From Psychroflexus curvus (GTDB lineage Bacteria > Bacteroidota > Bacteroidia > Flavobacteriales > Flavobacteriaceae): DNA of 64,000 nt. The stretch lies in assembly GCF_020164585.1 (NCBI RefSeq), contig NZ_JAIQZF010000004.1:124001-188000 (forward strand), read 5' to 3'. The notes under the pieces were generated by a model. It made no database searches. It was not told the DNA's origin and worked only from the letters and a program-made list of their open reading frames with translations. Made by a program: the position numbers and the translations under genes. The stretch's first letter is position 1, and each line of letters opens with the position of its first letter. This document shows, piece by piece, positions 12,367-41,740 of the stretch.

Positions 12367-12532
12367 CACAGGTTTTATCTTTTAAAATTTAAATTTTTAA
12401 ATTGTTAACAAAAAACTGATATATATCATGTATTCAGTAAATCAATTTAATACCAAAGGCATAACACAGATACCTAAGTCCTTTATAACTAAATATTTAA
12501 ATATAATTTAATCTCGTTAACCGCATGCTTTA

Positions 12533-12575
12533 TGATTTTAATCATATATTAAACATATCTTAATTTTTAGATTTG
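12533..12575 (+). promoter_or_regulatory. Crp/Fnr-type box and -7 element driving the nos operon
   Basis: TGATTTTAATCA (12533-12544) matches the FNR/DNR core TGAT-N4-ATCA. Exactly 23 bp later comes TAGATTTG (12568-12575), a perfect Bacteroidota -7 box, 25 bp before the first nos-operon ATG. The geometry fits class II activation (activator centred near -41). The same 12-mer occurs at 38965 in front of the copper-receptor genes. A weaker palindrome, TGATATATATCA, lies upstream at 12417-12428 with no -7 box at this spacing. Confidence 0.8.
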
Positions 12576-12600: not shown

Positions 12601-13119
12601 ATGAAACCACTTATTAAAATCTCTTCTATTTTCCTTCTAGGCTTACTTATAGCTTGCGGTGGAAACGGAGAAAAAAAAGAAAAGGACCAGATAAAAGTTG
12701 GTCAGCAGTCAAAAACAGAAAAGAAATCTGAACCTGCAACACAGTCAACATCTGAAACTTCTGCAGAAGATGATATGGCCAATTTGGGAATCGGTCCTAT
12801 AAAATCGGTAGATATAAGCGAAGGCATAAATAAAGAAATGGCCGCCAGGGGTAAAAAGGTATATAATAATCTGTGTACAGCCTGCCACAAGATGGATAAT
12901 AAATTTGTTGGTCCGGCACAAGGTGGTGTGACTGAACGCAGAAGCCCCGAGTGGATCATGAACATGATTTTGAATCCGGAAGAAATGATCAAAAAAGATC
13001 CCATCGGAAAACGCTTACTCGTAGAAAGTAACATGGCAGTAATGGCCAATCAAAATGTATCTGAAGAAGACGCTCGTGCAATTCTGGAATACTTCAGAGA
13101 ATATGACAAGACTCATTAA
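12601..13119 (+). CDS. Lipoprotein monoheme cytochrome c, first gene of the nos operon
   Basis: A lipobox leader (FLLGLLIAC) is followed by a Ser/Glu/Lys-rich linker of about 60 residues. A class I cytochrome c domain follows with the heme motif CTACHK (Cys92, Cys95, His96) and a probable axial Met in the segment ESNMAVMANQN. It is predicted to be membrane-anchored in the periplasm and to pass electrons from the quinol pool side to NosZ. Clade II nos clusters commonly include such cytochromes in place of NosR-type electron donation. It is the first gene behind the Fnr-type promoter. Confidence 0.9.
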   Translation: MKPLIKISSIFLLGLLIACGGNGEKKEKDQIKVGQQSKTEKKSEPATQSTSETSAEDDMANLGIGPIKSVDISEGINKEMAARGKKVYNNLCTACHKMDNKFVGPAQGGVTERRSPEWIMNMILNPEEMIKKDPIGKRLLVESNMAVMANQNVSEEDARAILEYFREYDKTH

Positions 13120-13138
13120 TCCCTTTAAATATAACCCT

Positions 13139-13735
13139 ATGAACATTCATTTTATTAAATCACTGGCTTCTGTTTTTGTAATGGTATGCTTGTTAGCCTG
13201 CAACTCTTCGAATAATTCGAAAAGTTCTGACCAATCCACAGAAGATAAAACAAACTCAAGCGAAGTTTCTTCTTCCAATAAAGGACAGGCTTTTATTGAA
13301 GATAATGAAGGAGATCCAAATGCCCTTCAACTGGCAGTGGGTTCTGAAGATCACACCACTTTGGTTACAGCTGTCCAGGCTGCAGGAGTTGAAAATGCTT
13401 TGGTAAATGTGGGACCCCTGACAGTTTTCGCACCTACTAATGCGGCTTTTGACAAACTAGACAAAGCCACTTTGGAAGATTTACTCAAGCCTGAAAACAA
13501 ATCTAAACTTGCTAACATTTTAGTCCACCACGTTGCACCGAGCAATTACCCAGTCAAAACTCTAGAAAAAAATATAGAGAAAGACAGGAAGCTTTATATG
13601 GCGGATGGCTCTTATTTAGATGTGACTAAAAAAGGAGAAGATCTTTACATCGGTGATGCCAAGATTATCGCCACCGTTAATGTCAGCAACGGCTGGGTAC
13701 ATATTGTAGATAAGGTTTTATTACCAACTAACTAA
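13139..13735 (+). CDS. Fasciclin-domain lipoprotein in the nos operon
   Basis: The start MNIHFIKSLASVFVMVCLLAC (ATG 13139) gives a lipoprotein leader and avoids overlap with the cytochrome gene. After a Ser-rich linker comes one fasciclin (FAS1/beta-Ig-H3) domain, marked by GPLTVFAPTNAAFDKL and the closing NGWVHIVDKVLLP. FAS1 domains usually mediate adhesion or protein contact; a role in NosZ assembly or anchoring is only inferred from position. The gene lies 19 bp after the cytochrome gene and 33 bp before nosZ. The length is 198 residues. Confidence 0.88.
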   Translation: MNIHFIKSLASVFVMVCLLACNSSNNSKSSDQSTEDKTNSSEVSSSNKGQAFIEDNEGDPNALQLAVGSEDHTTLVTAVQAAGVENALVNVGPLTVFAPTNAAFDKLDKATLEDLLKPENKSKLANILVHHVAPSNYPVKTLEKNIEKDRKLYMADGSYLDVTKKGEDLYIGDAKIIATVNVSNGWVHIVDKVLLPTN

Positions 13736-13768
13736 ATTTTAAAATCAAAACAATAAACAATCAAAACA

Positions 13769-15736
13769 ATGAAAACAATTCAAAAACTATTACTAGGTCT
13801 AGGTGCAGGATTACTGTTAGTAGGCTGCGGTAACAATTCAAACGACAATTCTTCTGGTGCTATGGCATCTTCTAATGCAGAACAGGTCTACGTTGCTCCC
13901 GGAGAGCATGACGAATTTTACGCCTTTATGTCTGGCGGCTATTCTGGTAACTTAACCGTTTATGGTCTGCCAAGTGGAAGAATGTTTAAAGAAATTCCTG
14001 TTTTTTCTCAATTTCCAACCAATGGTTATGGATATTCTGAAGAGACTAAAGCTATGCTTAATACGTCTTTCGGATTTATCCCTTGGGGAGATTCTCACCA
14101 TCCGGATATTTCTCAAACCAATGGAGAATTGGATGGGCGTTGGATTTTCATCAACGAAAACAACACTCCACGTATTGCCAGAATTAGCTTGACCACTTTT
14201 GAAACCGATGAAATCATCGAAATCCCTAATTCTGCTGGTAACCATGCTTCATCTTTTGTGACTGAAAACACAGAGTATATTGTAGCAGGAACACGTTTCG
14301 CAGTTCCAAATCCACAAAAAGACATGCCAATTGACGATATGAAAGGGAAGTTCAAAGGCCCTTTGAGTTTTATTTCTATCGATCAGGAAACCGGGCGGAT
14401 GAATTTAGATTTTCAGTTGAATATGCCAGGTTTCAATTATGACTTAGCTCACCCTGGCCGTGACAAATCTCATGGTTGGTTCTTTTTTACTTCCTATAAT
14501 ACCGAAGAAGCACACTCTATGCTAGAGGTCAATGCTTCACAAAACGATAAAGACTTTATCGCCGCTGTGAACTGGCAAAAAATTGCAGAATATGTAGAAA
14601 ATGGTGGAGGAAAAAAAGTAGCTGGCACTTATGCTCACAATGTGTTTGATGAATCAACAATGACGGCCACTACAGAAATGAAAGAAGGCGTTATTTCTGT
14701 CGATCCTCGCGAAGTTGAAGGTGCTGTGTTTTATATGCCGGTTCCAAAATCACCTCACGGCGTAGATGTAGATCCATCCGGACAATACATCATTGGTAAT
14801 GGTAAATTATCTACTCAATTGAGCGTGTATTCTTTTGAAAAAATGATGAAAGCTATTGAAGATAAAGATTATGACGGTGACGCTTACGGTATCCCCATTT
14901 TAAGCTTCGAATCTGTTTTGGAAGGCGTTGTAGATAGTGGTGGTTTAGGACCATTGCATACTGAATTTGATGGTAAAGGAAATGGATACACCACCTTCTT
15001 TATCTCTTCTGAAGTCGTTAAATGGAAAATAGGAACCTGGGAAGTTTTAGATAGAAAACCTACCTATTATTCCGTTGGACACTTGATGATTCCTGGTGGT
15101 AACTCAAGAAAACCATATGGTAAGTATATGGTAAGTTTAAATAAAATTACCAAAGACAGGTATCTGCCAGTTGGACCAGAACTGGAACACTCTGCACAGT
15201 TATATGATATATCAGGAGATAAAATGAAACTCATATACGATTTCCCAACCCATGGTGAACCTCACTATGCTGCAGGAATCCCTGCTGATAAAATAAAATC
15301 TCAGTCTAAAAAATATTATGAGTTAGAAGAGAACAATCATGAGTATGCAGTAAAAAATGAAGCTAATACCCGTGTAGAACGTAATGGCAATGAGGTGCAC
15401 GTTTATGCAACCACAGTTAGAAGCCATTTTGCACCCGATAATATTGAAGGTATAAAAGTTGGTGATAAAGTGTATTTTCATATCACAAACCTAGAGCAGG
15501 ACTTTGATGTTCCTCATGGATTTGCAATGATTGGAGCTAATACATCAGAGATTTTGATTATGCCCGGACAAACTAAAACCATTGTATGGGAACCAAAACG
15601 CGAAGGAGTTTGGCCTTTCTACTGCACAGACTTCTGTTCTGCACTTCACCAGGAAATGCAAGGTTATGTAAGAGTTTCTGCTAAAAACAGCAACACTAAA
15701 TTACGCTGGAAATTAGATGAAGATTGGAATGAGTAA
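13769..15736 (+). CDS. nosZ: Nitrous oxide reductase, clade II (Sec-exported, lipoprotein-type leader)
   Basis: NosZ reduces N2O to N2 in the periplasm. The leader (LLLGLGAGLLLVGCGNN) is a Sec/lipobox type rather than the twin-arginine leader of clade I, which places it in clade II. The seven-bladed propeller carries the CuZ histidine segments (DSHHPDIS, AHPGRDKSHGW, SPHGVDVDPSG, GPLHTEFD, GEPHY). The C-terminal cupredoxin domain has the CuA motif C-x3-C-x3-H-x2-M (Cys619, Cys623, His627, Met630), plus VPHGFAM. The full length of 655 residues and all copper ligands seen argue for an active enzyme. A terminator-like hairpin follows the stop. Confidence 0.98.
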   Translation: MKTIQKLLLGLGAGLLLVGCGNNSNDNSSGAMASSNAEQVYVAPGEHDEFYAFMSGGYSGNLTVYGLPSGRMFKEIPVFSQFPTNGYGYSEETKAMLNTSFGFIPWGDSHHPDISQTNGELDGRWIFINENNTPRIARISLTTFETDEIIEIPNSAGNHASSFVTENTEYIVAGTRFAVPNPQKDMPIDDMKGKFKGPLSFISIDQETGRMNLDFQLNMPGFNYDLAHPGRDKSHGWFFFTSYNTEEAHSMLEVNASQNDKDFIAAVNWQKIAEYVENGGGKKVAGTYAHNVFDESTMTATTEMKEGVISVDPREVEGAVFYMPVPKSPHGVDVDPSGQYIIGNGKLSTQLSVYSFEKMMKAIEDKDYDGDAYGIPILSFESVLEGVVDSGGLGPLHTEFDGKGNGYTTFFISSEVVKWKIGTWEVLDRKPTYYSVGHLMIPGGNSRKPYGKYMVSLNKITKDRYLPVGPELEHSAQLYDISGDKMKLIYDFPTHGEPHYAAGIPADKIKSQSKKYYELEENNHEYAVKNEANTRVERNGNEVHVYATTVRSHFAPDNIEGIKVGDKVYFHITNLEQDFDVPHGFAMIGANTSEILIMPGQTKTIVWEPKREGVWPFYCTDFCSALHQEMQGYVRVSAKNSNTKLRWKLDEDWNE

Positions 15737-15769
15737 TAAGTTGATGTTTTGATTTTGATTACTCAATCT

Positions 15770-15802
15770 GGGGCGAGTAGAATTCTCTGCTCGCCCTTTT
15801 TT
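15770..15802 (+). terminator. Terminator-like hairpin between nosZ and the nos assembly genes
   Basis: GGGCGAG and CTCGCCC form a 7-bp GC-rich stem (15771-15777/15790-15796) followed by T6. It lies inside the operon, 34 bp after the nosZ stop and 16 bp before the next gene. It probably acts as a partial terminator or 3' mRNA stabiliser, giving more nosZ than assembly-factor transcript. Confidence 0.8.
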
Positions 15803-15818
15803 ATTAAAAAATTAGATT

Positions 15819-16424
15819 ATGAAAACAGCAAGTATTACCATGATTATTGGCTCTGCCCTATTGTTTGGATTATTTTTATATCCCCTTTGGAGCATTAGCC
15901 TGGAAGCACCTCAATATCCAAGTGGCATAGGCATGTATATCAACCTCGACGGACTTGAAGGTCATGAAAAGCACGATATTCAAAATATAGATGGGCTTAA
16001 CCATTATATAGGCATGCGTAAATTACCAAAAGATGATGAAATGTGGGAGTTTTCTGTATTTCCCAAAGTCGTTGGTGGTATGGCTATATTGGGCATTATC
16101 ATTGGAATTCTAGGCTTTTTTAAAAAAATATCCTACAACTGGTTTTTAGGATGGCTCATTCTTATGCTTGTGCTAGGTGTTCTCGGCATGATCGATTTTA
16201 ATAACTGGATGACCGATTATGGCACTAACTTAGATCCAAAAGCCATCATGAAAATGACAGATGATGAAGGCAATCCCTTAAGTTACAAGCCCCCCTTGTT
16301 TGGTTCTAAAGATATATTAAATTTTACAGCTCATTCTTATCCGGCATTAGGTGCAATTTTGATGGGAGCTGGTATGTTTCTTACGTTTGTAGCTTACATC
16401 ATCGGGCTTAAAAAAACAAAGTAA
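15819..16424 (+). CDS. Four-helix membrane protein of clade II nos clusters
   Basis: This 201-residue protein has about four transmembrane helices (near 8-28, 88-108, 115-135 and 170-195). A periplasmic loop between the first two contains the HEKHDIQNIDGLNHYIGMRKL segment with several His residues. A membrane protein in this place, between nosZ and nosL, is a recurrent feature of Bacteroidota nos operons, where it takes the position of nosB. Its biochemical role is not known to me; the His/Met-rich loop makes a part in copper handling or NosZ maturation reasonable but unproven. It is 1 bp from nosL. Confidence 0.8.
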   Translation: MKTASITMIIGSALLFGLFLYPLWSISLEAPQYPSGIGMYINLDGLEGHEKHDIQNIDGLNHYIGMRKLPKDDEMWEFSVFPKVVGGMAILGIIIGILGFFKKISYNWFLGWLILMLVLGVLGMIDFNNWMTDYGTNLDPKAIMKMTDDEGNPLSYKPPLFGSKDILNFTAHSYPALGAILMGAGMFLTFVAYIIGLKKTK

Positions 16425-16425
16425 T

Positions 16426-16878
16426 ATGAGAAAATACACCCTTTTAGCTCTATTAATAATTGCTATTACCTCCTGCGATAAATCAGTAAAACCAATCAAG
16501 TACGGAGAAGATCAATGTGACTATTGCAGCATGAGCATCGTTCAAAAAACGCATTCAGCCCAGATGGTGACTGAAAAAGGAAAGCAACACAAGTTTGATG
16601 CTGTTGAATGTATGGTGAATTACATTAAGCAAGAACCGAAAAAGTTTGAAAATGCTACTTTGCTTGTGGCTAATTACAATCAGCCCGGCGAAATGATTCC
16701 TGCTGAAAATTCAGCCTACTTGATCAGTAAGAGTTTACCAAGCCCAATGGGAGCTAACTTAACTGCTTTTGCAACTACAGCTGAGGCTAAAGAAGCACAA
16801 AAAAAATTAGATGGTAAAGTATATCAATGGAATGAACTTATGGAAGTCATCAATACGAATAGTCATCAAAGTCGATAG
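16426..16878 (+). CDS. nosL: NosL copper-chaperone lipoprotein
   Basis: This 150-residue lipoprotein (leader ending AITSC) has the NosL copper motif DQCDYCSMSI and the following HSAQMVTEKGKQHKFDAVECM, which supply Cys, Met and His ligands. NosL binds Cu(I) in the periplasm and delivers it to NosZ via NosD/F/Y for CuZ assembly. It is tightly packed in the operon: 1 bp after the membrane-protein gene and 1 bp before nosD. The length is typical. Confidence 0.95.
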   Translation: MRKYTLLALLIIAITSCDKSVKPIKYGEDQCDYCSMSIVQKTHSAQMVTEKGKQHKFDAVECMVNYIKQEPKKFENATLLVANYNQPGEMIPAENSAYLISKSLPSPMGANLTAFATTAEAKEAQKKLDGKVYQWNELMEVINTNSHQSR

Positions 16879-16879
16879 A

Positions 16880-18127
16880 ATGAAATCAAGTTTCTTCCTC
16901 TTATGCCTTATTATAGCATTAAACTTCAGCTATGCACAAAACAGAACCCTGGAGGTGTGTGCTAAGGATTGTGAGTTTACTTCGATTCAGCAAGCAGTCG
17001 ACCAGGCAAAAGCTGGGGATTCCATTTTTATAAAAAAGGGAGTTTATAAAGAACATGATATATTTATCAACAGGAAATCGCTTCATCTCTACGGTGAAAA
17101 AGGCAGCATAATAGATATCGACCATAAAGGCTATGGGATTAAGGTGGAAGCTAATGATTTTAGCATCACTGACCTGACTATAAAAAACGTTGAAGTAAGT
17201 TACACATCGGATTATGCGGCGATTTACCTTTTTAAATGTGACAATTTCAAACTAAAAAACATCACTTTAAAAAAAGCATTCTTTGGATTTCTGATTGAAA
17301 AATCCAGCAAGGGCATTATCGAAGAAAACGATATTTCTGGTATTGGTCAATCTGAAGCAAGTTCTGGAAACGCCATTCACCTTTGGAATTCAAAAGAGCT
17401 GGAAGTGCGAGATAACGATGTTTACAATATGCGGGATGGGATTTACATTGAATTTGGAAGCAATAATGTTTTTGAGAACAATACAAGCCACGACAATATG
17501 CGCTACGGACTGCATTTTATGTTTTCCGATGATAATCGCTACAGTTATAATACGTTTCAAAACAACAGTGCTGGCGTTGCCGTTATGTTTTCTAAACGCA
17601 TTCAAATGAACAATAATGTGTTTAAAAAAAATTGGGGAACAGCCTCTTATGGTTTGTTACTGAAGGAAATCAGCGATGGCGAAATCTATCACAATACTTT
17701 TGAAAATAACACAACAGGTATCACTGCAGATGGTTCTACCCGAATAAATTACTACGAAAATGACTTTATCAATAATGGCTATGCTGTAAAATTCATAGGA
17801 GGCAGCTACAAAAACAAGTTTTATAAAAATAATTTTCTTTACAATAACTTTGATTTAAGCTACTCTGGAAGACTGAACAATAACAGTTTTGATACTAATT
17901 ACTGGAGCGATTACACTGGTTATGATTTGGATAATGATAACTATGGAGATGTGCCTTACCGTCCTGTAAAATTGTTTAGTTATCTGGTAAACGAAACGCC
18001 CGAAAGCATTATTTTATTGAGAAGTCTATTTGTAGATATCATCAATTTTTCAGAAAAGGTAACCCCTGTTTTTACCCCAAAAAACCTTACCGACCAACAA
18101 CCCTTAATGAGCGAAGTGCAATGGTAG
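16880..18127 (+). CDS. nosD: NosD periplasmic beta-helix copper-cluster assembly protein
   Basis: From ATG 16880 there is a Sec leader (MKSSFFLLCLIIALNFSYAQ), then a right-handed parallel beta-helix of CASH/PbH1 repeats with recurrent N-rich turns (NNVFENNTSHDNMRYGLHF, GEIYHNTFENN) and the NosD-type ending NYWSDYTGYDLDNDNYGD. The length of 415 residues is normal. NosD works with the NosFY ABC complex to build the CuZ site. The start follows the nosL stop by 1 bp, and the end overlaps nosF by 7 bp. Confidence 0.96.
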   Translation: MKSSFFLLCLIIALNFSYAQNRTLEVCAKDCEFTSIQQAVDQAKAGDSIFIKKGVYKEHDIFINRKSLHLYGEKGSIIDIDHKGYGIKVEANDFSITDLTIKNVEVSYTSDYAAIYLFKCDNFKLKNITLKKAFFGFLIEKSSKGIIEENDISGIGQSEASSGNAIHLWNSKELEVRDNDVYNMRDGIYIEFGSNNVFENNTSHDNMRYGLHFMFSDDNRYSYNTFQNNSAGVAVMFSKRIQMNNNVFKKNWGTASYGLLLKEISDGEIYHNTFENNTTGITADGSTRINYYENDFINNGYAVKFIGGSYKNKFYKNNFLYNNFDLSYSGRLNNNSFDTNYWSDYTGYDLDNDNYGDVPYRPVKLFSYLVNETPESIILLRSLFVDIINFSEKVTPVFTPKNLTDQQPLMSEVQW

Positions 18128-18828
18128 AATTTAAAGATATTCAAAAAAAATTTGGTAAAAATGACGTGCTTACGGGCATAAATTTAAAAATCCAAGATGG
18201 TAAAACCACAGCAATTTTAGGTCCTAATGGTTCCGGAAAAACCACCTTAATCAAAATATTGCTTGGGATGTGTCATTCAAATAAAGGAGATATTTTAGTT
18301 GGTAACTCCACTACCAAAAACAATTGGTCTTATAGAAAAAACATTGATTACCTCCCTCAAATCGCCAATTTCCCGGGAAATATAAAAGTGAAAGAAATCA
18401 TTGCGATGATCAAAGACTTGAGACATCAAAAAACTCGTGATGAGGAGTTGATCACGTATTTTGAATTGAAGCCCTACCTAGACACCAAGCTGAGTCATCT
18501 TTCCGGTGGATATAAACAAAAAGTGAACCTGGTGCTTAGTCTTATGTTTGATAGTCCATTTGTTATTTTGGATGAACCGACTTCAGGCTTAGATCCTCTG
18601 TCTTTAATCAAGCTAAAAGACCTGCTCAAAAAAGAACAAGACAATGGGAAAACCATCCTGATTACGTCTCACATCATGAGTTTTGTAGAAGAAATTTCAG
18701 ACCACATCAGTTTTATTTTAGACGGTAAAGTCTATTTCGATGGAAGTATAGATGAATTAAAATCAACAACCCAAGAAACCGATTTTGAATACGCCATTGC
18801 TAACTTATTAAAAAACGATCATGCTTAA
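18121..18828 (+). CDS. nosF: NosF ABC ATPase of the NosDFY complex
   Basis: This 235-residue ATPase has Walker A GPNGSGKTT, signature LSGGYKQKVNL, Walker B FVILDEPTSGLDP and H-loop TSHIMSFVEEISDH. It is the cytoplasmic motor of NosDFY, converting ATP hydrolysis into conformational changes that pass copper or sulfur species to NosZ. It overlaps nosD by 7 bp and nosY by 8 bp, a strong sign of translational coupling. Confidence 0.96.
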   Translation: MVEFKDIQKKFGKNDVLTGINLKIQDGKTTAILGPNGSGKTTLIKILLGMCHSNKGDILVGNSTTKNNWSYRKNIDYLPQIANFPGNIKVKEIIAMIKDLRHQKTRDEELITYFELKPYLDTKLSHLSGGYKQKVNLVLSLMFDSPFVILDEPTSGLDPLSLIKLKDLLKKEQDNGKTILITSHIMSFVEEISDHISFILDGKVYFDGSIDELKSTTQETDFEYAIANLLKNDHA

Positions 18829-19603
18829 AATTTTAAAATACAGTTTTTTTGACTTGATAAGAAGCCGCTGGAGTTATGTGTATTTCCTGTTCTATCTACT
18901 TCTGAGTTCGGTATTGTTATTTTTAAATAATGATTTATCAAATGCTATCATCACACTGCTCAATGTTGTGATTGTTTTAGTGCCGCTCATCGGCACTATT
19001 TTCGGAGTCATGTATTATTACGATTCGCAGGAATTTACAGAACTCCTTTTAGCACAGCCTATTAAAAGGAAGTCCATATTTTTGGGTCAGTACCTGGGTG
19101 TTGCCACTTCCCTATCTTTAAGCGTGTTGTTAGGCTTAGGCATTCCCTTTGCATTGTATGGCTTATTTCAATCCAATGTCATTTTTGATTTTTTAATTCT
19201 GATTGTGGTTGCCGTTTTTTTAAGCTTTATCTTCAGTGCTTTAGCTTTTAATATCGCCCTGACCAATACCAATAAAATCAAAGGATTTGGATATGCCATT
19301 TTAGTTTGGTTGTTTTTAGCAGTCATTTATGATGGTGCTTTTTTGATTGCCCTCATCTACTTTCAGGAATATCCTCTAGACCAGTTTACTTTGGTTGCCA
19401 CGCTTTTCAATCCTATTGATTTATCACGAATTTTAATCTTACTAAAGCTCGATATCTCCGCTTTACTGGGTTATACAGGAGCTATTTTTAAAGACTTTTT
19501 CGGTACCATAGCCGGAAGTTTAGTGTCTTTAGGCGTTTTGGCAGTATGGGTAGTTTTACCATTATGGCGAATGCTTCACGTTGCTAAGAAAAAAGATTTT
19601 TAA
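18821..19603 (+). CDS. nosY: NosY ABC-2 type permease of the NosDFY complex
   Basis: This 260-residue protein has six predicted membrane helices and the motif YYYDSQEFTELLLAQPIKR, typical of NosY, the ABC-2 partner of NosF. It is the last gene of the nos operon; a 20-bp inverted repeat follows 17 bp after the stop. No nosR, nosX or clade I accessory genes are present, in line with a clade II system. Confidence 0.95.
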   Translation: MLKILKYSFFDLIRSRWSYVYFLFYLLLSSVLLFLNNDLSNAIITLLNVVIVLVPLIGTIFGVMYYYDSQEFTELLLAQPIKRKSIFLGQYLGVATSLSLSVLLGLGIPFALYGLFQSNVIFDFLILIVVAVFLSFIFSALAFNIALTNTNKIKGFGYAILVWLFLAVIYDGAFLIALIYFQEYPLDQFTLVATLFNPIDLSRILILLKLDISALLGYTGAIFKDFFGTIAGSLVSLGVLAVWVVLPLWRMLHVAKKKDF

Positions 19604-19704: not shown

Positions 19705-19747
19705 TGATTCAAATCATAAACTAAGGCATAATCTAGTCGTAATTTTA
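19705..19747 (+). promoter_or_regulatory. Crp/Fnr-type box and -7-like element of the ric operon
   Basis: TGATTCAAATCA (19705-19716) is followed after exactly 23 bp by TAATTTTA (19740-19747), a 7/8 match to TAnnTTTG, 23 bp before the ric ATG. The 12-mer is identical, in the other orientation, to the one at 31842-31853 before the truncated-hemoglobin operon. Confidence 0.75.
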
Positions 19748-19770: not shown

Positions 19771-20490
19771 ATGACTTCATTGAAGGATAAAACTGTCGCA
19801 GCACTGGTTAGCGAAAACATTAACACAGCCCACGTATTCAAAAAATATGGCATCGACTTTTGTTGTGGCGGTGGTATCAGCGTCTCAAAAGCTTGTGAAA
19901 AAAATCATGTTGAACTGGATGAATTAATTGACGATATAGTCAATCTGAAGGATAAAGGCAGAAGCTATGACTATAAAAAGTGGGACCTGAATTTCCTGGC
20001 ACAACATATTGAAAACGTGCACCACAGCTATGTAGAAGAAACTATTCCACTACTTATTCAGTATACCAATAAAGTAGCAAAAGTACATGGCGATTCAGAT
20101 CCGGAATTAATAAGAGTTAGAGATTTATTCGTTGATGTCGCGAATGAATTAACTCCGCATTTAAAAAAAGAAGAGTTGATATTATTCCCTTTCATTGCTA
20201 AAATGGAACGCGCAGTTAAAAGTGGCGAAAGCCTGGAGCGACCTCATTTTGGAACGGTTGAAAACCCTATTGCCATGATGGAAGACGAACATGAAGCTGC
20301 CGGGGATCTTTTTAAAGAAATCGCATCTTTAACCCATAACTATAGCCTGCCAGAACATGCCTGTAACACGTATAGAGCTATGTTTCATAAACTGGAAGAG
20401 TTCGAAAATGATTTACATTTGCACATACATTTAGAAAATAATATCCTTTTTCCAAAAGCTTTAGCCCTGGAAAAGAAAATTTTTTCATAG
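19771..20490 (+). CDS. ric: Di-iron Fe-S cluster repair protein (Ric/ScdA/YtfE family)
   Basis: The N-terminal ScdA_N domain (VAALVSENINTAHVFKKYGIDFCCGGG) has the typical Cys-Cys-Gly motif. The hemerythrin-like domain supplies di-iron ligands (HHSYVEETIP, LTPHLKKEELILFPF, EDEHEAAG, HIHLENNILFPKA). Length is 239 residues. Ric repairs Fe-S clusters after nitrosative or oxidative damage in the cytoplasm. Placement behind an Fnr-type box just after the nos operon fits an anaerobic NO-stress role. The downstream membrane-protein gene follows 9 bp later. Confidence 0.96.
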   Translation: MTSLKDKTVAALVSENINTAHVFKKYGIDFCCGGGISVSKACEKNHVELDELIDDIVNLKDKGRSYDYKKWDLNFLAQHIENVHHSYVEETIPLLIQYTNKVAKVHGDSDPELIRVRDLFVDVANELTPHLKKEELILFPFIAKMERAVKSGESLERPHFGTVENPIAMMEDEHEAAGDLFKEIASLTHNYSLPEHACNTYRAMFHKLEEFENDLHLHIHLENNILFPKALALEKKIFS

Positions 20491-31119: not shown

Positions 31120-31512
31120 TTAGGAATCGGTCTTTCTATTCATGTAAATCTGCATAAATATATGAGAAGCCATATTCCTGGCGTTATTTTTTGCACGGTC
31201 GGCGAGATCGCCTTCAAAGTAATCGTCCACAGTCTCAAACCAAAGATTTAACCAGACACCAAAATGTTTTTGCTCTATGCTTTGATCGAAATCCTGGTCA
31301 ACGCGTTGATGCGCCAGTTTCGGATTGCCTTTGTAGTTGCGTTTAAAAAGTAAATTGGTTTCCCAAAAATCGGTTAGTTTCTCAAGATGCTCATTCCAGT
31401 CCTGGATGGTTTCATTGAAAAAATAACCTATCTCCTCGTTTTTACGAACTTTTGTGTAGAATTGATGGACTAGCTTAGACACATCTTCCCTTGTTGTTAG
31501 GTCTGTTTTCAT
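31120..31512 (-). CDS. Group III truncated hemoglobin
   Basis: This 130-residue protein fits the TrHb3 group: DVSKLVHQFYTKVRKNEEIGYFF (B10 Tyr in FYTKV), WETNLLFKRNYKGNP and the heme-proximal His in EQKHFGVWLNLW. Members bind O2 or NO in the cytoplasm; a role in NO detoxification is likely. Its ATG overlaps the stop of the small membrane-protein gene by 4 bp (ATGA), so the two are translated together. It is downstream of a Crp/Fnr-type box. Confidence 0.95.
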   Translation of the reverse strand: MKTDLTTREDVSKLVHQFYTKVRKNEEIGYFFNETIQDWNEHLEKLTDFWETNLLFKRNYKGNPKLAHQRVDQDFDQSIEQKHFGVWLNLWFETVDDYFEGDLADRAKNNARNMASHIFMQIYMNRKTDS

Positions 31513-31796
31513 GAAATAAAAATATAATAAGCAATGCTGAGCACACTTGATAATACACTAATCACTTGTAATAAAAAAACCATTTTTGATTTTAATCCGA
31601 CTAAAACTGAAGCATTATAAATCATGGCGACTATCACAATCCAGCTCAGATGAATAACGTGATAAACAGAATTTCCATCTGCCAAAACCATCATAGCAGC
31701 TATAGAGCCAGGGCAACTAGAAACAATGATGCCCAGGATAGAATTTGCCATATAAAACCTTTCAAAATCAGTTGATAATCTATTAATTATGTCCAT
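31509..31796 (-). CDS. Small three-helix membrane protein coupled to the truncated hemoglobin
   Basis: This 95-residue protein has three or so hydrophobic helices (near 18-38, 48-66, 71-93) with the GIIVSSCPGSIAAMM segment in the first. I do not recognise a family. It is the first gene of an operon with the truncated hemoglobin (4-bp overlap) and lies behind a Crp/Fnr-type box at 31842-31853. Function in NO handling is inferred only from this linkage. Confidence 0.75.
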   Translation of the reverse strand: MDIINRLSTDFERFYMANSILGIIVSSCPGSIAAMMVLADGNSVYHVIHLSWIVIVAMIYNASVLVGLKSKMVFLLQVISVLSSVLSIAYYIFIS

Positions 31797-31810: not shown

Positions 31811-31853
31811 ACAAAGTACAAAGCAACATGAGAACCATTTATGATTTGAATCA
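31811..31853 (-). promoter_or_regulatory. Crp/Fnr-type box and -7-like element of the truncated-hemoglobin operon
   Basis: On the minus strand TGATTCAAATCA (31853-31842) is followed after 23 bp by TACTTTGT (31818-31811), a weak TAnnTTTG-like box. The palindrome is identical to that before ric (19705), and they share 16 bases in a row. It also lies 11 bp behind the stop codon of the Crp/Fnr gene. Confidence 0.75.
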
Positions 31854-31863
31854 GTTCTGGAAT

Positions 31864-32460
31864 TTATCTGAAAATCTTTCGCTTTTTAATTTGAATTTCT
31901 CCCTTTTTCTCCAGTGACTTACAGGATCGAATAACGGTTTCTACCCGTAAACCGGTTAAGTCAGCGATTTGCTGACGCGTTAAGTCTACTTCCAGGACGT
32001 CTGTCGAATCCAGGTCATGGATATGCTTTTTGGTGTAGTCTAGCAATCTCAAAATTCGATGTTCAGGTTCCTGAGATGAAATTTCTGAAGCCATAATCGC
32101 TTTGTAATAGAGTCGGGAGGCCAATACTTCTGAAATTTTAAGATGTGTGTCAGGGTTTTGTTTAAGCAATTCAAAAAAAATATCTTTCGGCAAGCGGTAT
32201 AGTTCAGCATCTGTAATAGCTTCAGCTCCTGCAGGATAGGCTACATCTGCAAATAAAGGCGGCTCTCCAAAACTTTGTCCGGCATAAAAAATCCCTTGAA
32301 TGAACTCCTTACCATCCCGGTTGACGTTATTCATTTTCACTTCAACAGACTTCACTTGAAAATAAAATTGGGCTTTGCTGCCATAGTCGAAAATAATATG
32401 GCCTTTCTCTATTTTAATGAGTTCGGCATTGAATTGTAACAATAAATCGGGGTTGATCAT
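31864..32460 (-). CDS. Crp/Fnr-family regulator lacking Fe-S cysteines (DNR-like candidate)
   Basis: The 198-residue protein has an N-terminal cyclic-nucleotide-binding-like domain (FIQGIFYAGQSFGEPPLFADVAYPAGAEAI) and a C-terminal HTH. The recognition helix LRVETVIRSCKSLE keeps the Glu and Arg that in FNR contact TGAT, matching the TGAT-N4-ATCA boxes in this window. The only cysteine is in this helix, so it cannot bind an FNR-type [4Fe-4S] cluster; a heme- or ligand-sensing DNR/NNR-like mechanism is more likely, but not shown. It is the probable activator of the nos, ric, hemoglobin and copper-receptor promoters. Confidence 0.93.
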   Translation of the reverse strand: MINPDLLLQFNAELIKIEKGHIIFDYGSKAQFYFQVKSVEVKMNNVNRDGKEFIQGIFYAGQSFGEPPLFADVAYPAGAEAITDAELYRLPKDIFFELLKQNPDTHLKISEVLASRLYYKAIMASEISSQEPEHRILRLLDYTKKHIHDLDSTDVLEVDLTRQQIADLTGLRVETVIRSCKSLEKKGEIQIKKRKIFR

Positions 32461-38964: not shown

Positions 38965-39007
38965 TGATTTTAATCACAAACCAAGGCAACTGTTCTATTT
39001 ATTTTTG
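38965..39007 (+). promoter_or_regulatory. Crp/Fnr-type box and -7 element of the copper-receptor operon
   Basis: TGATTTTAATCA (38965-38976, extended to GTGATTTTAATCAC) is identical to the nos-operon box. After exactly 23 bp comes TATTTTTG (39000-39007), a perfect -7 match. The predicted transcription start falls at the GTG of the next gene (39012). This ties copper import to N2O respiration. Confidence 0.82.
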
Positions 39008-39011
39008 CAAC

Positions 39012-39395
39012 GTGAAAAACATCAAACTCCATATTGCGCTGGCACTCAGTCTTATTGTGCTTCTCTTCACAGTAAAGTCGGCATTTTGGCTATCCTATTA
39101 TGTGGTATTCACCGATAACTTTATTGAAAATTACTGTGAGAACACCGATAAACCTGAGCTTGAATGTGATGGAAAATGCTTTCTAAGTGACGTCCTCGAT
39201 AAAAAAGAAACAGACACTCCAAAAAATGCTAATATTTTCCTGGAAAGCGAACTTATTTTCACCACTATTGTTTATGAGACAGATCTTATTTTAGATCCTT
39301 TTATTTCAAAACAACAACACTCCTACTTTTATACTTCACTCTATAAATTTCATTATCTAAAAAGCAGTTTTAAGCCTCCTGCAGTTTGTGTTTAA
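39012..39395 (+). CDS. Small membrane-anchored protein with a Cys motif, paired with a copper TonB receptor
   Basis: GTG start at 39012 (128 residues); an upstream ATG at 38964 would lie in the promoter. One N-terminal helix (IALALSLIVLLFTVKSAFWL) is followed by the motif NYCENTDKPELECDGKCFL, with Cys spaced C-x9-C-x3-C. Such small proteins with C..KPELxCxGKC motifs often precede copper-type TonB receptors in Bacteroidota. Copper binding by this motif is plausible but not shown. The gene lies 47 bp upstream of the receptor. Confidence 0.75.
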   Translation: MKNIKLHIALALSLIVLLFTVKSAFWLSYYVVFTDNFIENYCENTDKPELECDGKCFLSDVLDKKETDTPKNANIFLESELIFTTIVYETDLILDPFISKQQHSYFYTSLYKFHYLKSSFKPPAVCV

Positions 39396-39442: not shown

Positions 39443-41740
39443 ATGAAATTTATTCTAAGCGCCATATCCCTTTTGGCTACTTCTATAATGCTAATTGCAC
39501 AAACTAAGTCTATAGAAGTAAAAGACGCACAAACCAAAGAAACTCTTACCGGGGTTTACGCCATCGATCAAAATAACAAAGAGGATTACCGCATTACTGA
39601 AAACAAGATTCTAAAATTAGAAATCGGTAAAACTTACCGCGTTAGCCATATAGGCTATAGTTCTCAAGTTTTAAAAATAAAATCCTCAACTCCGGAAGTT
39701 GTTTTCCTGGAAGCTCAAAATACAGAGCTGGCAGAAGTTTTAGTCACAGGGAAGATCTTTCAGGACCCTGTGATGAACATCACCACGCCAGACTTAACGG
39801 AAAGAGTCAGTCAGCCCAAAAATGTAGCAGATCTTTTTCGAGACATCAACGGATTTGGCCTTATAAAACGCGGGAATTACGCCATAGATCCATCGTTCCG
39901 AGCTTCACAATACGAACAATTAAACATTCAATACGACGGTGGTACTAAAGTCATGAACGCTTGCCCCAACAGAATGGATCCCATCACAACACATGTGATG
40001 CCAGAAGATATCGCAAAAATTGAAGTGGTTCGCGGACCTTACACTATGCGCTACGGCGCTACCTTTGGCGGGCTCATCAATATGGTTTCCAAACGTCCAG
40101 AACTAGGAAAATATGGCTTTTCAGGAAGTGCTTCTACTGGCTATGAAACCAATGGAAACTCCATGGTTAACATGGTTCGCCTTCAATATGCTGAAGAAAA
40201 GTTCGATGTCGTGGGCATGTACGGTTACCGGGATTTTGGCAACTACGAAGATGGAGCTGGTCGAGAAATCCCTTCTTCATTTAGAAGTATAGACTACAGC
40301 CTTCGGCTAGGCTACAACTTCGCCAGTCTGGAACGTTTGCAATTGCACTGGAGACAATCCTATGGAAGAGATGTGCTTCACGCTTCCTTACCAATGGATT
40401 CAGATTACGATGATTCTTCTATGCTATCCCTGGATTATTTTAAAAAAAACCCAGGTAAAACACTACAAAAAATACAGGCTAAAGCTTACTATTCTTACGT
40501 AGACCATTTAATGAGTAACAGCAGACGAAGTAATTTTAGTACAGTTGAAGCTCTTTCTCCTGTTGAAGCTACTACAGCAGGTGGTCGATTTGAATTAGAA
40601 TGGAAACTCGATGAGTTCTGGACACTTTTCACGGGAACCGATGCGCTTTTAATCAGTAGAGACGGGACCAGAAATCGGCTTATCAAGCTTAATATGATGG
40701 GAATGTCAATCAATCCGCCAATAGAATTGACAGATAAAATCTGGCAGGAGTCGTTTATCAATGACTATGGATTTTTTGCAGAATCACGTTACAGACTCAA
40801 CACCTCAACAGTTCTCAGCGCAGGTATTCGATATGATGTGGTAAACTCAGATATTCAAGATCCCGCTTCAGATTTCCAAGATTACTATCCAGGTTTAGGA
40901 AACAGAACTGAACACAATTTTAGTGGGACCCTATCGCTTAAAAAATTACTGGATGCTGATAATCAATTGGAATTCGCTTTTGGTCGTGGGGTGCGATCAG
41001 CCAACATGATTGAGAGGTTTATCAATCATTTTCAGGTGGGGCAGGATCCGTTTGAGTACATCGGAAACCCAAATCTAGATGCCGAAGTCAATAATCAATT
41101 TGAAGTCGCCTACACGGGTAAGAAAACAATGGATGGACCCGTCGACAGACTGGACTGGGGAGCTTCCGTCTATTTTTCTCAATTCGAAAATTACATCGTC
41201 GCCATCATAGATCCTACCAAAACGAGAAAGTTTATGCCCAATCAGGAACCTCTAAACCCTAAAGTCTTTAGAAATCTGGATGATGCTTACAAAACAGGTT
41301 TTGAAGCCAATCTGGGAGTCAACTTCTTTAATAATTTTCAATTTGATGCTGAAGCAGCATACGTATACGCTAGAAATGAGGATTTGAACGAATCCCTGCC
41401 ACTTACGCCTCCTTTGCGTAGCAAGTTGAGCTTACAATACAACAAAAACAAATTCTGGATTGCCACCGACTTAAGAGTCGTAAGCCAACAGGACGAACTT
41501 GCGACTTCATTTGGTGAAAATCAGGCGACGCCAGGTTACGAATTGGTTGATTTTCGATTGGGTTATGAGTTGTTACCCGACCTTAACCTTGGCGGAGCAG
41601 TTTTGAATGCATTTGATCAGCAATATTATGACCATTTAAATTTTGCTTTCAGAAATCAGGCCAACGCCAGTTTAAGCGGAATGGAACGCCTCACCGATCC
41701 AGGTCAAAATTTTACTGTATTTGTAAAGTATGAGTTTTAA
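39443..41740 (+). CDS. Copper-specific TonB-dependent receptor (OprC/NosA-like)
   Basis: This 765-residue receptor has a leader (AISLLATSIMLIAQ), a carboxypeptidase-like domain, a plug and a barrel ending VFVKYEF. The plug contains ACPNRMDPITTHV: Cys174-x3-Met178 corresponds to Cys143-Met147 of OprC. The barrel has VDHLMSN, with His355-x-Met357 matching His323-Met325 at almost the same spacing (181 vs 180 residues). These are the OprC copper ligands. NosA, its relative in Pseudomonas stutzeri, is needed to load NosZ with copper. The Fnr-type box upstream supports the same role here. Confidence 0.93.
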   Translation: MKFILSAISLLATSIMLIAQTKSIEVKDAQTKETLTGVYAIDQNNKEDYRITENKILKLEIGKTYRVSHIGYSSQVLKIKSSTPEVVFLEAQNTELAEVLVTGKIFQDPVMNITTPDLTERVSQPKNVADLFRDINGFGLIKRGNYAIDPSFRASQYEQLNIQYDGGTKVMNACPNRMDPITTHVMPEDIAKIEVVRGPYTMRYGATFGGLINMVSKRPELGKYGFSGSASTGYETNGNSMVNMVRLQYAEEKFDVVGMYGYRDFGNYEDGAGREIPSSFRSIDYSLRLGYNFASLERLQLHWRQSYGRDVLHASLPMDSDYDDSSMLSLDYFKKNPGKTLQKIQAKAYYSYVDHLMSNSRRSNFSTVEALSPVEATTAGGRFELEWKLDEFWTLFTGTDALLISRDGTRNRLIKLNMMGMSINPPIELTDKIWQESFINDYGFFAESRYRLNTSTVLSAGIRYDVVNSDIQDPASDFQDYYPGLGNRTEHNFSGTLSLKKLLDADNQLEFAFGRGVRSANMIERFINHFQVGQDPFEYIGNPNLDAEVNNQFEVAYTGKKTMDGPVDRLDWGASVYFSQFENYIVAIIDPTKTRKFMPNQEPLNPKVFRNLDDAYKTGFEANLGVNFFNNFQFDAEAAYVYARNEDLNESLPLTPPLRSKLSLQYNKNKFWIATDLRVVSQQDELATSFGENQATPGYELVDFRLGYELLPDLNLGGAVLNAFDQQYYDHLNFAFRNQANASLSGMERLTDPGQNFTVFVKYEF

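Follow-up and report, generated by a model that had tools for sequence, protein, structure and literature searches.

The layout of promoters in Psychroflexus suggests that Crp/Fnr-type proteins act there as class II activators from operators centred at -41.5. Two regulators probably share this layout, one serving a low-oxygen core of genes and the other serving genes for nitrogen oxides and copper. The layout consists of a TGAT-N4-ATCA palindrome and a -7 box of the TAnnTTTG type placed 23 bp further downstream. In the window, a 64,000-nucleotide stretch of the Psychroflexus curvus genome, it is found at four promoters (Table 1). To our knowledge, activated promoters of Bacteroidota are poorly described relative to those of Proteobacteria. 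A fixed-spacing rule would make the control of low-oxygen metabolism and N2O reduction predictable from flavobacterial genome sequence. It would also place the nos genes, Fe-S repair, haemoglobin, and copper receptor of N2O reducers under one regulator that can be tested, with the microaerobic core assigned to another.

Letter-by-letter reading of the four focal palindromes found a TAnnTT box after exactly 23 bp in each case, counting the bases that separate the last A of the palindrome from the first T of the box. The palindrome TGATN4ATCA occurs seven times in the window (1.95 expected; none of 100 shuffles reaches seven), and three of the seven have no box. The whole pattern TGATN4ATCA-N23-TAnnTT occurs four times with 0.02 expected, and none of 100 shuffles reaches four. 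The preliminary description of this DNA had claimed the four exact spacings and the sharing of two 12-mers, and direct reading bears out both: TGATTTTAATCA is common to the nos and copper sites, and TGATTCAAATCA is common to the ric and haemoglobin sites, the latter on the minus strand. The -7 box that it gave as TAnnTTTG is exact at only two of the four promoters, the ric box being TAnnTTTA and the haemoglobin box TAnnTTGT. Its gene labels stand, with NosZ and Ric matched directly, the haemoglobin matched through 2ig3, and the copper label resting on the best NCBIfam model, below its cut-off. Since the window pattern was chosen after the sites had been seen, the weight lies on the genome-wide tests of spacing.

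Table 1. Features of the window discussed in the text (positions counted from the first letter of the window).
Feature	Position	Strand	Remarks
nos operator, palindrome TGATTTTAATCA	12533..12544	+	predicted -47 to -36; gap-23 site at 6/10 orthologous promoters including the window's
nos -7 box TAGATTTG	12568..12575	+	predicted start ~12580, from box position -12 to -5 (PMC9723704)
nos operon	12601..19603	+	cytochrome c, fasciclin-domain protein, NosZ (Sec type), 201 aa protein, NosL, NosD, NosF-like ATPase, NosY-like permease
ric operator, palindrome TGATTCAAATCA	19705..19716	+	gap-23 site at 9/10 ric homologues including the window's
ric -7 box TAATTTTA	19740..19747	+	TTTA ending in 7/9 ric sites
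ric, iron-sulfur cluster repair di-iron protein	19771..20490	+	TIGR03652, E 9.2e-72
Group III truncated haemoglobin	31120..31512	-	phmmer to PDB 2ig3, E 4.6e-14
95 aa membrane protein (by eye), haemoglobin operon gene 1	31509..31796	-	
Haemoglobin-operon -7 box TACTTTGT	31811..31818	-	fits TAnnTTGY, motif SM5 of F. psychrophilum (PMC9723704)
Membrane protein/truncated haemoglobin operator, palindrome TGATTCAAATCA	31842..31853	-	gap-23 site at 10/10 homologues including the window's
Window Crp, Crp/Fnr-type regulator, recognition helix VETVIR	31864..32460	-	Pfam cNMP_binding and HTH_Crp_2; PDB relatives include DNR
Copper operon operator, palindrome TGATTTTAATCA	38965..38976	+	gap-23 site at 7/8 homologues including the window's; eighth at gap 24
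Copper operon -7 box TATTTTTG	39000..39007	+	predicted start 39012, on the GTG itself
127 aa protein with CxxxC-type ECDGKC motif, copper operon gene 1	39012..39395	+	
TonB-dependent receptor	39443..41740	+	best NCBIfam model TonB-copper, 256 of 472 bits, under cut-off

Some products of these operons are less typical. The NosF-like ATPase and NosY-like permease are labelled by position, the permease match being under the Pfam cut-off. The second nos gene (13055-13735), flanked by the cytochrome c and NosZ genes, encodes a fasciclin-domain protein. An extra palindrome, TGATATATATCA, lies at 12417-12428, 184 bp 5' of the nos cytochrome start, and nos upstream palindromes of a similar kind occur at -159 to -192 in five genomes (G001, G021, G041, G004, and G024). 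The 95 aa membrane protein had no Pfam or NCBIfam match, and no Pfam family was found for the 127 aa protein of the copper operon. Mislabelling of the truncated haemoglobin was considered and rejected, since Pfam and NCBIfam gave no match, yet the protein clearly matches the group III structure 2ig3. The small protein of the copper operon has its start codon 4 nt 3' of the -7 box (39000-39014), and the same is true of all eight homologues (GTG in six, ATG in two). The start codon would coincide with the predicted +1, which predicts a leaderless mRNA.

The 23-bp spacing is a property of the genus and not only of the window. The P. curvus genome (3.0 Mb) has 11 matches to the palindrome and full TAnnTTTG box at gaps of 10-40, and six of these are at gap 23. 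All six lie 4-51 nt upstream of an ORF start; two of them overlap an ORF, one the start of a divergent gene (L004) and the other the upstream extension of its own gene (L011). The five matches at other gaps include four within long ORFs (L001, L002, L003, and L006), and the fifth is the hemN palindrome on the opposite strand. Forty genomes were searched as relatives, and the matches listed come from 16 of them (P. curvus, 11 others of the genus, and four from other families). Among these listed matches, gap 23 accounts for 38 of 150 (next gap, 12), divided into 6 of 11 in P. curvus, 30 of 123 in the genus, and 2 of 16 in the other families, where there is no gap-23 peak. For a second genus of the family, the 150 matches listed come from 11 of its 15 genomes, and 53 of them have gap 23 (next gap, 11). 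A gap-11 peak was rejected as a second class of site, the own-genome member examined being located in a 529 aa ORF.

Searches with the gap fixed at 23 delimit the layout further. There are 62 matches in the 23 genomes of the genus, found in 22 of them, against two for the reversed pattern, a control that may be too lenient as TAG and CTA occur in it; this weakness does not affect the gap histograms. Sampling of 247 genomes across the phylum showed the pattern in all 25 other genomes of the same family (106 matches). Another family of the order has nine matches in three genomes, 32 other genomes of the class have 30 matches, and 186 genomes of other classes have 25, while the reversed pattern occurs once in all 247. 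These counts were summed by hand and are consistent with a tally of 72 of 247 genomes. The layout is mainly a feature of the Flavobacteriaceae. When named genomes were scanned, the top hits (92-76% identical) came almost entirely from Psychroflexus, in agreement with the genus of the window. Around relatives of the window Crp in many genera, 80 named loci (63 with full flanks; eight from Psychroflexus or near kin, partly the same genomes as the genus set) gave 83 matches, 43 at gap 23 and 27 at gap 24. Gap 24 belongs mostly to the haemoglobin promoter of Flagellimonas, Allomuricauda, Aquimarina, Mesonia, and Flavobacterium, where 20 of the 27 precede P0001, the operon partner of the haemoglobin, and two precede the truncated haemoglobin gene (trHb). 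The spacing rule is therefore 23 or 24, and 23 prevails in Psychroflexus. These distributions leave a negligible probability that the common spacing arose by chance or as a by-product of AT-rich sequence. Both motifs are indeed AT-rich and three of the seven window palindromes have no box, but four sites were seen against 0.02 expected, the reversed pattern gave 2 matches against 62, and the gap histograms, with peaks of 6 of 11 and, among the matches listed, 38 and 53 of 150, refute chance spacing.

The position of the palindrome points to an activator. At class II promoters, CRP and FNR sit at about -41.5, and the sigma-A promoter of Bacteroidota has a TTG or TTTG element at -33. Mapped starts of Flavobacterium psychrophilum have TAnnTTTG at -12 to -5 (PMC9723704), so a gap of 23 places the palindrome at -47 to -36 with its centre at about -41.5. 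The -7 boxes are of the Bacteroidota type, two of the four in the window being exact and those of the haemoglobin homologues in G021, G015, and G005, among others, also being TAnnTTTG. The haemoglobin promoter has TAnnTTGT in the window, G004, and G024, a possible sign that sigma preference has changed at this one promoter. In the part of its range left free by the palindrome, the -33 element is mostly absent. TTG at a spacing of 17-20 is not enriched among 61 distinct gap-23 sites of the genus (5, against 5.3 after shuffling), and TTTG at a spacing of 16-19 is present in seven (2.1 after shuffling; 10 of 2000 shuffles reach seven) and missing from 54. We infer that a bound activator mostly stands in for the -33 element, and that this replacement is incomplete, as seven of the 61 sites keep a TTTG. 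The proposal that a class II Crp/Fnr regulon is adapted to the Bacteroidota promoter is supported as regards the -41.5 centre and its conservation at orthologous promoters; the gap is 23 or 24 elsewhere, and 'adapted to' probably means 'replaces', most sites being without the -33 TTTG.

An operator that covers the place of the -33 element could also bind a repressor, and the TTTG kept there in seven of 61 sites would suit one. The palindromes would then overlap the promoter, and low oxygen or NO would relieve repression. This is very unlikely. A repressor has no need of a spacing fixed to 1-2 bp, most of the sites lack the -33 TTTG, and gap 23 agrees with the class II position. In F. psychrophilum, moreover, expression of cbb3 and haem-synthesis genes rises when oxygen is limiting (PMC9723704).

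The layout is conserved at homologous promoters. A footprint scan accepted an exact palindrome with up to two box mismatches, or one palindrome mismatch with up to one in the box. For the four operons together, 32 of the 38 homologous promoters keep a gap-23 site, the window being counted among them: 9 of 10 for ric, 10 of 10 for P0001/haemoglobin, 7 of 8 for the copper operon, and 6 of 10 for the nos cytochrome, the same scan finding none at the other four nos-cytochrome promoters. The scan found no such site at 29 internal controls upstream of nos2, trHb, and CuTonB. The lone match under NosZ is the ric site, which is reached since that NosZ is split. Upstream of the Crp gene there are weak matches in 4 of 11 loci, where the box has no TA.

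The genes behind the gap-23 sites of the genus are often ones for life at low oxygen. For each of the 62 sites (61 distinct) in 23 genomes the downstream ORF was taken; family labels are those of representatives, all other members having been assigned by eye on their initial residues. The sites precede usp in 13 cases, hemN in 11, cbb3 genes (FixS, FixH, and CcoI-like ATPase) in five, and thioredoxin-like genes in five. They are followed by acetyl-CoA hydrolase, DJ-1/PfpI, P0001/haemoglobin, and the small copper protein with three each, and the nos cytochrome with two. The remaining 14 sites stand before other genes or are not followed by a clear ORF, and only some of these suit a low-oxygen role; they include a multicopper oxidase-cytochrome c gene (L081), hemF, deoC, mlaE, and a ribosome-hibernation factor gene, the rest being without an evident role or ORF. 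Because the same layout precedes hemN, cbb3, usp, and other genes, the sites would form a general microaerobic regulon with a nitrogen-oxide/copper branch. A regulon of NO, N2O, and copper genes had been described, and that branch is present; the regulon is wider, with hemN, usp, and cbb3 genes as its most frequent members. A genome-wide scan had been suggested as a test, with many hits unrelated to anaerobic genes as the refuting outcome. It did not refute the proposal: among the six exact sites of P. curvus, nos and the copper operon have one each, and the others precede hemN, usp, a gene of the cbb3 set, and a thioredoxin-like gene.

Several individual sites deserve mention. In G003 (L081:759-2234) the gene after the site encodes a multicopper oxidase with a C-terminal cytochrome c, possibly a nitrite reductase. 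The thioredoxin-like sites in G003, G016, and G040 differ in sequence. One P. curvus site (C12:371882) runs into the beginning of a divergent ORF of 188 aa that looks tag-like by eye, and the site's conservation in G004 is confounded for this reason.

Two Crp/Fnr proteins of P. curvus have FNR-like recognition helices. The genome encodes five cNMP-binding proteins. In one of them, a frame of 658 aa, no Crp-type helix was seen in the terminal segments read. The helices of the other four, read by eye, are SESLIR in a response regulator-Crp fusion, VETVIR in the window Crp, and SRVVISR and TSQALSR in the others. Among the Crp proteins of this genome read in this way, only the fusion and the window Crp retain the Glu...Arg of FNR-type helices. 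Helix positions were matched by eye from an alignment with DNR and from the helix of E. coli FNR. By the published rule for FNR-type specificity (PMC1274295), VETVIR and SESLIR both have the Glu and Arg of the helix and no Arg at 180. The fusion is composed of receiver, cNMP_binding, and HTH_Crp_2 domains, and its gene adjoins a gene for a PAS histidine kinase. All 23 genomes of the genus encode this fusion, and in 12 of them its gene is directly followed by a gap-23 site, there before usp. Each of the two proteins lies beside a gap-23 site of its own.

The distribution of the window Crp links it to the nitrogen-oxide branch. It is found in 11 of the 23 genomes, including all ten with a NosZ match (nine above the cut-off; G024 has two part matches below it). 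This co-occurrence has p = 1e-5 with the relatedness of the genomes ignored, and it could reflect joint transfer of neighbouring genes. In 68 of the 80 named loci, the member of the window-Crp family has P0001 or the haemoglobin no more than 10 kb away. As it accompanies NosZ in 10 of 10 genomes and lies near the haemoglobin in 68 of 80 loci, the window Crp is probably the regulator of the nos, ric, haemoglobin, and copper sites. It had been proposed as the regulator of the whole set, and that can be upheld for this branch as likely; as sole regulator it is rejected, the motif being present in all 12 genomes that lack it. The original observation was right and its mechanism is most likely right, with the scope widened and the number of regulators two in Psychroflexus. 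Two genomes show unusual combinations. In G013 the fusion, the window Crp, and NosZ are all present without any exact gap-23 match, though near-matches precede ric and P0001. G015 (L145 and L077) has the window Crp with the haemoglobin operon, copper operon, and ric with their sites, but no NosZ match; nos may possibly have been lost from its regulon.

The sequences of the operators differ between the two groups of genes. T at core position 5 together with A at position 8 characterizes 27 of the 32 nitrogen-oxide/copper sites. Genomes that lack the window Crp have this pair in 3 of 28 sites, and genomes that carry it have the pair in 2 of their 26 other sites. Counted as distinct 12-mers, with relatedness ignored, the numbers are 12 of 17, 2 of 15, and 1 of 12, suggesting two overlapping specificities. 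The difference does not carry over to other genera, where five of five hemN sites located beside relatives of the window Crp have A or G at position 8; either these genes have been taken over by a regulator of the window-Crp type, or the site difference is looser than Psychroflexus makes it seem.

A single regulator is an alternative reading. The fusion would drive all gap-23 promoters and the window Crp would do something else, such as repress or modulate, in keeping with the presence of the fusion in 23 genomes, the motif in 22, and the window Crp in 11. This is unlikely, given the distinct bases that the nos, ric, haemoglobin, and copper sites have at positions 5 and 8, and given the linkage of the window-Crp family to the haemoglobin or its operon partner. 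The second genus also argues against it, having gap-23 and gap-24 sites and no detected fusion: there was no match in its 15 genomes at E 1e-40, and the same query matched 23 of 23 in Psychroflexus. With no match at that threshold, the fusion is rejected as a family-wide regulator, and its assignment holds at most for Psychroflexus. Because gap-23 sites are abundant in the second genus and the fusion was not found there, other Crp/Fnr proteins must use the layout in that genus, where 10 of the 15 genomes have window-Crp relatives.

The two-regulator reading leads to the following proposal. A Crp/Fnr dimer would bind at -41.5, about where the Bacteroidota -33 element would lie, and would recruit RNA polymerase to a TAnnTTTG box that mostly has no -33 element. 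The fusion and its PAS histidine kinase would most likely switch on the low-oxygen core (hemN, the cbb3 oxidase, and usp) at TGATWWWTATCA-like sites, and perhaps the thioredoxin-like and acetyl-CoA hydrolase genes as well. The stand-alone window Crp would most likely switch on nos, ric, the truncated haemoglobin, and the TonB receptor at TGAYTnnAATCA-like sites. Low O2 or redox state may be the signal for the fusion, and NO or a related compound may be that for the window Crp. More tentatively, the whole family might use a class of promoters with a Crp/Fnr dimer in place of the -33 element at 23-24 bp, the protein that fills this slot varying by lineage. The Psychroflexus paralogues, one of them a two-component response regulator, could discriminate by the bases at positions 5 and 8. 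Low oxygen and nitrogen oxides would in this way be read separately from a near-identical box.

The proposed regulators have counterparts in other bacteria. The FNR, ANR, and FixK anaerobox regulons of Proteobacteria have a TGAT-N4-ATCA core in class II position and include cbb3 oxidase, hemN, and nos among their targets; nos is reportedly a target in a FixK2 study, and hemN is said to be one in an Anr study. The Psychroflexus sites are alike in core, position, and these targets. They differ in that the TAnnTTTG promoter mostly lacks a -33 element, whereas the promoters of Proteobacteria are of the -10/-35 type, and the outer T of TTGAT is not conserved. Each Psychroflexus regulator has one Cys, and neither has the four-cysteine set for the Fe-S cluster of FNR proper. 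In the FixL-FixJ-FixK cascade of rhizobia, FixJ is a response regulator with a LuxR-type output domain. A PAS histidine kinase and a response regulator beside a cbb3-type regulon are common to both systems. In the Psychroflexus fusion, however, the output consists of cNMP_binding and HTH_Crp_2 domains, so that receiver and Crp output are joined in one protein that would replace both FixJ and FixK.

Like DNR and NnrR, the window Crp is a Crp/Fnr protein of one chain with ties to nos and to genes for handling NO, in its case ties of gene linkage. Its best solved relatives include DNR (3dkw), with weak similarity (E 9e-12). Its helix is ETVIR and theirs is ETFSR, and the phylum and promoter type are different. 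HcpR and HcpR2, predicted NO-related Crp/Fnr regulators of Bacteroides and Porphyromonas, likewise connect this protein family with nitrogen-oxide stress in Bacteroidota (PMC1274295). HcpR2 has the motif GTAACnnnnGTTAC and a replaced Glu181 (PMC1274295), whereas the Psychroflexus sites have TGAT-N4-ATCA and the helix keeps its Glu. The DNR, NnrR, and HcpR regulons were reconstructed in 2005, and the word Flavobacter is absent from the available text of that work (PMC1274295). According to a study of CRP/FNR proteins in a reactor community, its Ignavibacteria and related genomes give no evidence that this family controls denitrification (PMC8510549). Searches of openly accessible literature at title and abstract level turned up no account of this layout for a Crp/Fnr regulon of flavobacteria. 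The TonB-dependent copper receptors NosA and OprC are anaerobically induced and have been proposed to supply N2O reductase, although the need for them is disputed (PMC8610252). The receptor of the window shares the type, its match being below the TonB-copper cut-off, and it differs in belonging to a Flavobacteriaceae operon after a small CxxxC protein.

A second conserved element occurs at some promoters. It lies upstream of TATTTTTG at gap 16 in three genomes (G020:C48:350500, G004:C44:156415, and G003:C32:340665). The element is an inverted repeat, TGTCCA...TGGACA in two of the genomes and TGTCAA...TTGACA in the third, and the changes are paired. It is probably the operator of another regulator.
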